From assembly GCA_903889655.1 (NCBI GenBank), contig CAISYL010000065.1:1-33703 (forward strand): a stretch of DNA of 33,703 nt, in the 5' to 3' direction. The stretch is from an uncultured Alphaproteobacteria bacterium (GTDB taxonomy: Bacteria; Pseudomonadota; Alphaproteobacteria; Parvibaculales; Parvibaculaceae). How positions within the stretch are numbered: position 1 is the stretch's first letter; every line of letters begins with the position of its first letter. Positions 16,227-17,005 of the stretch are shown here, piece after piece. Made by a program: the position numbers and the translations under genes. Below the pieces are notes generated by a model. The model searched no databases. It worked only from the letters and a program-made list of their open reading frames with translations, and was not told the DNA's origin.

Positions 16227-16973
16227 ATGGCGCGGGCACCCAAAAAAGATTCGGCGAAGAAAGACGCGCAGGCGACGAAGCCTCGCGCGCGCGCGAAACC
16301 CGCTTCGCCGATGATCCTCCTGAAGCCCGACTACGCCTTCGAGATCGAGCATGGCGCGCCGCATCTCCTGGTCTGCGGTATCGACGAGGCGGGGCGCGGT
16401 CCGCTGGCGGGGCCGGTGGTCGCCGCCGCCGTCATCATCGACGCGGAGAACTGCCCCGAAGGCCTCAACGATTCGAAGAAGCTCGACGAGGCGCGCCGCG
16501 AAGCTCTCTTCGCGAAGCTGAGCCAATGCGCGGAGATCGGCGTCGGCATCGCCAGCGTCGAGGAAATCGACGAGATCAATATTCTCTGGGCCTCGATGCT
16601 CGCGATGAGCCGCGCCTTCGAGGCGCTCGGCAAGACGCCGCAATTCGCCCTTATCGACGGCAACCGCATTCCGAAACTCGCCTGCCCCGCCCGCGCCATC
16701 GTCGAGGGCGACGCTCGCGTCCTTTCGATCGCCGCCGCCTCGATCATCGCCAAGGTGACGCGCGACCGGTTGATGACCGATCTCGCCGCCGAACATCGCG
16801 GTTATGGCTGGGAAACGAACCGCGGCTACGGCACGCCGGAGCACCTCGATGCACTGACGCGCCTTGGGCCGACGCCGCACCACCGCCGCAGCTTCGCTCC
16901 GGTACGCAACATCTTGAGTCCCGAGATTCCAGAAGGACTCGATCTAGTGGTCGAGAATCCCTTAACCCTTTGA
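16227..16973 (+). CDS. rnhB: ribonuclease HII
   Basis: Cleaves RNA in RNA-DNA hybrids, notably at single ribonucleotides misincorporated in DNA. This 248-residue protein carries the RNase HII signature [19 protein letters not shown] with the first active-site Asp and Glu, LIDGN with the next Asp, and the [20 protein letters not shown] block. The first 28 residues are a Lys/Ala-rich extension ([10 protein letters not shown]) before [11 protein letters not shown]; translation might instead begin at 16311, and neither start has a good ribosome-binding site. The stop codon lies within the GANTC cluster of the downstream ccrM promoter, 61 bases before ccrM. Confidence 0.95.
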
Positions 16974-17000
16974 TTCTTGACGCAGAATCGTCGCTGACTC
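16925..17000. promoter_or_regulatory. cluster of six GANTC methylation sites upstream of ccrM
   Basis: GANTC occurs at 16925, 16936, 16955, 16972, 16985 and 16996 (GATTC, GACTC, GAATC, GATTC, GAATC, GACTC), six in 76 bases where about 0.3 would be expected in random sequence. Three lie in the end of rnhB, one overlaps its stop and two lie in the ccrM promoter. A TTAACC, resembling a CtrA half-site, is at 16962-16967. Confidence 0.75.
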
Positions 17001-17005
17001 ATGAT
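16977..17005 (+). promoter_or_regulatory. candidate ccrM promoter with embedded GANTC sites
   Basis: TTGACG (16977-16982) and CATGAT (17000-17005) are 17 bases apart. One GANTC lies wholly in the spacer and another ends on the first base of the -10. This is the placement reported for methylation-sensitive, GcrA-type promoters in Caulobacter; regulation here is inferred. Confidence 0.5.

Follow-up and report, generated by a model that had tools for sequence, protein, structure and literature searches.

A recurrent ccrM promoter of Alphaproteobacteria with GANTC sites in its core

The ccrM locus and its GANTC cluster

The window, i.e., the whole stretch of DNA analyzed here (33,703 nucleotides, from an uncultured member of the Parvibaculaceae), carries a gene for an adenine methyltransferase downstream of rnhB on the same strand. 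Its product has an N6/N4 methylase domain and a C-terminal RAMA domain (Pfam), which confirms the identification of the gene downstream of the cluster as ccrM in an earlier reading made without database searches (here, the sequence-only reading). The protein is 94% identical to the homologue of Parvibaculum sedimenti and 93% identical to the one from a metagenome-assembled genome with the label Rhodobiaceae. It is also the sole full-length match in its own genome, where two other matches span about 70 residues each. Methylation of GANTC by this CcrM is predicted from homology and from the avoidance of GANTC described below. The features of the region are as follows.

16227..16973, plus strand: rnhB (ribonuclease HII), start at 16227 or 16311, stop TGA at 16971-16973; Pfam RNase_HII, 2e-44 (16308-16973)
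16916..16920, no strand: GANTC site 1, GAGTC, within the rnhB codons TTG-AGT-C
16925..16929, no strand: GANTC site 2, GATTC, from the sequence
16936..16940, no strand: GANTC site 3, GACTC, overlapped by the rnhB stop of the close relatives L001 and L002
16955..16959, no strand: GANTC site 4, GAATC, from the sequence
16962..16967, plus strand: TTAACC, putative, resembling a CtrA half-site, from the sequence
16972..16976, no strand: GANTC site 5, GATTC, abutting the -35 element and overlapping the rnhB stop
16977..16982, plus strand: -35 element TTGACG, in fixed geometry in 60 of 101 loci of the class
16983-16999: -35/-10 spacer, 17 bp, from the sequence
16985..16989, no strand: GANTC site 6, GAATC, inside the -35/-10 spacer
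16996..17000, no strand: GANTC site 7, GACTC, its last C being the first base of the -10 element
17000..17005, plus strand: -10 element CATGAT (C-A-N-N-N-T), its A and T present in 60 of 60 class promoters of the form TTGA-N15-GANTC
17021..17027, plus strand: likely ribosome-binding site AGAGGGG, from the sequence
17035..18147, plus strand: ccrM, GANTC adenine methyltransferase, 370 aa, GTG start; Pfam N6_N4_Mtase 5.4e-67, RAMA 5.6e-17

Seven GANTC sites lie within 85 bp (16916-17000) by direct count on the sequence, four of them (16916-16959) in the 3' end of rnhB and one, at 16972, overlapping its TGA stop. The sequence-only reading had listed six; all six positions were right, but the count was one short, the GAGTC at 16916 having been missed. 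Its -35/-10 pair (TTGACG and CATGAT, 17 bp apart) stands as described, and so does its statement that the last two sites lie in or touch the promoter; the same layout is seen in numerous other families of the class. The start of ccrM transcription is predicted near 17012, roughly 7 bp downstream of CATGAT. The core promoter of the window holds two GANTC sites, and the only CtrA-like string nearby is the TTAACC at 16962-16967, which we take to be like a CtrA half-site. By inspection, TTAAC or TAAC strings occur near the same place in many relatives.

GANTC is otherwise avoided in the window, with 42 sites observed against 205 expected (the mean of dinucleotide-preserving shuffles), which makes a cluster of seven more extreme. 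When the 42 sites were placed uniformly, none of 20,000 trials put seven in 85 bp, and only 6 put five or more there. Elsewhere in the same genome (472,735 bp on 40 other contigs), no 85-bp stretch held more than four sites, and the densest such stretch in a genome of the same family held three (400 kb scanned). The claim of an unusual density is therefore upheld, and a check for similar clusters at unrelated genes found none in the own-genome sample plus window, which at 506 kb represents about 12% of the 4.36-Mb assembly.

Conservation of the sites and the neighboring rnhB

We compared 181 loci: 80 from GTDB, 100 others from the class, and the window. The GTDB loci, referred to as named loci, are the best-scoring 80 of 587 and are heavy in Caulobacteraceae and Rhodobacterales. 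CcrM was found at E ≤ 1e-60 in 275 of 386 class genomes; the 100 class loci were picked by hand from the best-scoring places listed, spread over families, with G001 skipped for its short upstream region. Together with the window, they make up 101 class loci that span 54 families by code. All counts over ccrM loci are of loci that share ancestry.

In the 300 bp upstream of ccrM, GANTC occurs at 14.64 sites/kb (443 in 30,269 bp, 101 class loci), compared to 1.53/kb elsewhere in the same loci (804 in 524,767 bp). At least three sites within 200 bp were found in 76 of the 101 upstream regions but in only 11 of 2,407 control windows, indicating that the sites are clearly conserved in relatives, a point on which the sequence-only reading had proposed a check. 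The upstream 200 bp of 15 class loci hold no site or one, so the cluster is not a universal trait.

The gene rnhB ends within 500 bp upstream of ccrM on the same strand in 84 of the 101 class loci. In the close relatives L001 and L002, it ends 12 codons earlier, with a TGA overlapping site 3, and all seven sites are nonetheless in place. The fixed bases of these sites are identical at 28 of 28 positions in the two relatives, as are 51 of 57 of the other bases in the array. Relative to these loci, the rnhB of the window has an extension of 12 codons, in the region 16935-16970. Where rnhB ends in TGA in the class, the stop is part of TGANTC in 31 of 53 cases (20 families), compared to 15 of 272 control frames, i.e., long frames ending in TGA. 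Where it could be read, the Leu-Ser pair of the rnhB tail is written TTG-AGT-C in 10 of 17 cases in the class and in 14 of 22 among all loci, while AGT makes up 72 of 1,359 serine codons in rnhB bodies. Because TGANTC stops and TTG-AGT-C both exceed their controls, the suggestion that rnhB codons are constrained by the sites gains support, with the proviso that the loci share ancestry.

In the 101 class loci, GANTC sites upstream of ccrM tend to lie at near-multiples of 10-11 bp from one another. With family weighting, their pairwise distances peak at 10.75 bp (0.186; the largest value over 9.5 to 12 bp in 300 shuffles was 0.109), and the sites outside the core show one at 10.0 bp (0.211; null maximum of 0.163, 300 shuffles). 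However, the phase of the sites relative to the -10 GANTC was not significant, with 356 of 1,000 shuffles as high. Helical phasing was therefore set aside, since this test was null and common descent was handled by family weighting alone.

A fixed promoter geometry linked to ccrM

Among the 110 TTGAC strings upstream of ccrM, 59 (33 families) have a GANTC at an offset of exactly 19, compared to just one of the 344 TTGACs that lie outside these regions in the class loci, counted on the same strand. Other offsets also pile up: 8 (35 cases), 10 (14), 7 (10), and 9 (10) represent the spacer site, with GANTC present 69 times at offsets 7 to 10 taken together, and -15 (24) and -5 (13) represent sites upstream of the -35 element. 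In all 60 class loci with TTGA-N15-GANTC, the site is followed directly by A, with T four bases after that A, although neither base was selected for. The last base of this GANTC thus begins a -10 element of the form C-A-N-N-N-T. Of the 60 sites fused to the -10 element, 45 have C as their central base, 13 have A, and 2 have T. GANTC is therefore positionally conserved inside the -35/-10 core of a sigma70-type ccrM promoter.

The arrangement is confined to ccrM in the sequence searched. Within the class loci, the two-site core TTGAC-N2-4-GANTC-N5-7-GANTC is restricted to the region upstream of ccrM, where 43 of 101 loci (26 of 54 families) have it. The strict 29-bp element, which includes the -10 A and T, was found upstream of ccrM in 91 of the 181 loci; neither the remaining parts of these loci, searched on both strands (approximately 2.0 million strand-bases), nor 873 kb of genome samples contained it. 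By contrast, TTGA-N15-GANTC, a looser pattern, does occur elsewhere: 13 times in other parts of the ccrM loci, twice in the own-genome sample, and 9 times in G359. The result is a recurrent promoter with GANTC fused to the -10 element, and usually with GANTC in the spacer too, that within the sequence searched is unique to ccrM.

We also looked for other genes with such a promoter, which would form a regulon. A sequence-only model, R1, was built from 51 such promoters, including that of the window and those of nine of 12 other genomes, and 150 of up to 1,825 first-look candidates per genome were scored. In the window's own genome, ccrM was the sole significant match (E = 2.1e-4, followed by 0.75, 150 candidates scored). 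Nine of the 12 other genomes had a match at E ≤ 1, the best being at ccrM each time, and two further matches had E values of 0.41 and 0.65; G128 and G217, which are among the 12 and belong to the window's family, had none. Since the window's promoter and nine others were in the training set, only the absence of other matches is informative. The weak matches in L247, L248, L258, and L259 contain no TTGAC-N2-18-GANTC on the strand scanned. The idea of a regulon was dropped because R1, with 150 candidates scored per genome, detected nothing else significant in the own genome or the 12 others.

The distribution of the promoter among lineages is uneven. The strict element is absent from 41 of the 101 class loci. 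Among the named loci (the best 80 of 587), the looser pattern is present in 22 of 30 Rhodobacterales, 3 of 4 Parvibaculaceae plus Rhodobiaceae, 1 of 5 other Hyphomicrobiales, 0 of 2 Hyphomonadaceae, 2 of 26 Caulobacteraceae, 0 of 1 other Caulobacterales, and 5 of 12 loci with no order assigned. Of the 33 named loci with this pattern, only L015 and L020, both from Caulobacter, match TTGA-N15-GANTC without the -10 A and T, and they were therefore counted as chance. In Caulobacter, the GANTC sites of the ccrM promoter are placed in the leader. Three Caulobacter loci lack the strict core and have TTAAC boxes upstream and, immediately ahead of the gene, GACTC and GATTC, so that Caulobacter, which the sequence-only reading had used as a template, does not serve as one here. 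The window's promoter, with two GANTC sites in its core and only a TTAACC half-site in place of a CtrA box, is not of the Caulobacter type.

Within the window's own family, L085 to L087 (genus code g2) also lack the strict element. L085 and L087 contain TTAA-N7-TTAACC-N5-GACTCATGATTC, in which a TTAA-N7-TTAA box takes the place of TTGAC; this is possibly a CtrA-box version of the same promoter. On the gene tree, the looser pattern requires at least 33 changes over 181 rows, compared to 60.8 when shuffled; well-supported branches force only 15 of the 33. Losses, gains, or both have therefore been frequent, and a single ancestry is unproven. We infer from these patterns that the ccrM promoter may have been rebuilt more than once.

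Control of ccrM: a possible direct response to methylation

The window's genome encodes GcrA (PF07750), the known reader of methylated GANTC, in a gene broken across the ends of two contigs (G000:C205 and C89). It was found over the Pfam cut-off in 80 of the 101 genomes and not in the other 21, where absence refers to a single Pfam model and could be explained by divergence; many of the matches in other genomes are short and split. The strict element is present in 45 of the 80 genomes that have GcrA and in 15 of the 21 in which none was detected, and so the promoter type does not co-occur with GcrA (Fisher P = 0.32, 101 genomes). GcrA, which the sequence-only reading had invoked for this promoter, thus goes undetected in 15 genomes that keep it. 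In ten families, GcrA is missing from every genome of the ccrM set, and eight of these families keep the element, in 13 genomes with completeness of 88 to 99%. For the remaining two of the 15 (G077 and G308), assembly gaps are likely, because other members of their families have GcrA. Outside the 15, the GcrA-less G060, a single 5.4-Mb contig, has both core sites and an 18-bp spacer. Seventeen GcrA-less genomes that could be placed on the CcrM tree are scattered over it. In an initial comparison, 23 of 54 GcrA-bearing genomes and 13 of 17 others had the element, but this was discarded; its subset had been chosen partly by promoter and GcrA state, which invalidates its Fisher test, and the full 101 genomes were used.

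Genomes with CcrM but no GcrA over the Pfam cut-off include G060, G121, G285, G211, G354, G195, G344, G101, G275, G053, G162, G318, G247, G329, G068, G069, G123, G173, and G258, among others.

Given that dense sites for its own product, two of them in the promoter, recur upstream of ccrM in many Alphaproteobacteria, CcrM probably adjusts its own production. The explanation toward which we lean, somewhat better than evenly, is that ccrM has a sigma70-type promoter with two sites for its own product in the core and that the methylation state of these sites sets promoter strength; both the effect and its direction are inferred from sequence and precedent. Under this model, ccrM would be transcribed from a promoter with one GANTC in the spacer and another sharing the first base of the -10 element, and the five further sites just upstream of the core would widen or sharpen the response. 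Full methylation by CcrM would lower firing, passage of the replication fork would leave the sites hemimethylated and allow ccrM to fire, and newly made CcrM would then remethylate the core and end the pulse. If core methylation alters promoter strength in this way, CcrM output would be coupled to replication. The effect would, at least in part, be exerted directly on polymerase and sigma, as suggested by the retention of the architecture where no GcrA was detected. GcrA, at the spacer site, and CtrA, at an upstream TTAAC, would tune the promoter where they are present, and the TTAACC at 16962 could be such a CtrA half-site. Most likely, then, the ccrM promoter senses its own methylation in part directly, with GcrA and CtrA as modulators, although direct action is not required in the window's genome, as GcrA is present there.

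According to a model paper on Caulobacter, ccrM transcription occurs only from a hemimethylated chromosome and is shut down by methylation (PMC2217572). That ccrM is regulated through its own methylation is already accepted in Caulobacter ("most probably", PMC3973325). The promoter of gcrA in Agrobacterium tumefaciens has six GANTC sites in 250 bp and responds to methylation even in Escherichia coli (PMC11514494). The precedents for ccrM (PMC2217572) and gcrA (PMC11514494) are the reason for favoring lower activity upon full methylation. The sign could instead be positive, with methylation activating the ccrM promoter as it does ftsZ and mipZ in Caulobacter (PMC3708114); in the same species, activation at 40 to 60 min of the cycle is described for start sites that have GANTC between -10 and -35 (PMC4287350).

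Three other explanations must be weighed against this model. That the cluster results from chance, base composition, or rnhB coding constraint agrees with the location of four of its seven sites in rnhB codons. However, no uniform placement reproduced seven sites, L001 and L002 keep the downstream sites even though their rnhB stops 12 codons earlier, and GANTC is enriched about tenfold upstream of ccrM across the class, so that for the cluster as a whole this explanation is already refuted. A GcrA-sigma70 mechanism, in which GcrA would bind the methylated or hemimethylated core sites and activate ccrM in a positive rather than a negative feedback, has considerably more in its favor: the window's genome encodes GcrA, and ccrM is a predicted core GcrA target in many orders on the basis of site content (Adhikari et al. 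2021, PMC7987155). In addition, the spacer site of GcrA-bearing genomes matches the extended GcrA motif of the literature, YGAKTCK, in 18 of 38 cases, compared to 126 of 568 for GANTC elsewhere in the loci. The -10 site of the same genomes, however, matches no more often than this background (10 of 45), and the element is kept in most of the genomes without GcrA over the Pfam cut-off (15 of 21, as above). In GcrA-less genomes, YGAKTCK is found at 4 of 12 spacer sites and 7 of 15 -10 sites, compared to 81 of 236 in the background. On balance, we regard GcrA-driven activation as rather unlikely.

Less probable again, and in our view a poor candidate, is the explanation that CtrA drives ccrM and GANTC only gates it, the array serving mainly to delay or titrate CcrM or to time hemimethylation. 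It draws on Sinorhizobium, in which CtrA binds the ccrM promoter and CtrA depletion lowers ccrM (PMC4433202), on the TTAAC-like strings seen by inspection upstream of the core in many loci, and on L085 and L087, whose full TTAA-N7-TTAA box occupies the TTGAC position. It leaves unexplained why GANTC is fused to the -10 element at a fixed 17-bp spacing in 33 families. A wider version of the methylation-sensing model is tentative, and we would call it possible rather than probable: an ancient, reader-free epigenetic feedback, spread over much of the Alphaproteobacteria, in which RNA polymerase itself senses methylation at the ccrM core and CcrM limits itself once per replication round, with GcrA a later addition or repeatedly lost and Caulobacter a derived exception.

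The promoter can be set beside several known systems. Like the window's gene, ccrM of Caulobacter crescentus has GANTC close upstream, and its transcription is said to depend on CtrA and on hemimethylation (PMC2217572, PMC3973325); it differs in the core, as described above. GcrA-sigma70 promoters such as those of ftsZ and mipZ also have GANTC sites, in ftsZ between -35 and -10 and in mipZ near the start (PMC3708114). In contrast, the ccrM sites are multiple, are fused to the -10 element at one offset, and persist without detectable GcrA. The Agrobacterium gcrA promoter resembles the present one in its multiple GANTC sites and its response to methylation (PMC11514494). It belongs to another gene, however, and the window's genome has no such cluster upstream of gcrA, where no GANTC was seen by eye (L244:371-600). 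Adhikari et al. likewise found an extended GANTC motif upstream of ccrM across orders, lost in Caulobacterales, but with a score that ignored site position in the promoter, and the fixed -35/GANTC/-10 geometry was not found in the relevant parts of that paper (PMC7987155). Brilli et al. (2010) were unable to derive control from site counts (PMC2877005). The fixed geometry, its link to ccrM only, and its retention without GcrA were not found in the available portions of the literature searched, key subscription papers aside; nor was an rnhB stop nested in GANTC, and a search for ccrM together with rnhB returned nothing in that literature.

What is known of how CcrM is limited to a brief pulse comes mostly from Caulobacter, in which the ccrM promoter looks different from those of many relatives. 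A target fused to the -10 element with base-pair precision in 33 sampled families allows direct reading of methylation by polymerase to be tested, and the GcrA-less species with the element form a natural set for such study. The 29-bp element also represents a precise signature for ccrM promoters.

The second-densest GANTC cluster in the own-genome sample, four sites in 73 bp (L187:3051-3123, contig C4 of G000), straddles the start of hemE (uroporphyrinogen decarboxylase, URO-D). Because the replication origin of Caulobacter adjoins hemE, this cluster may mark the replication origin of the window's genome.
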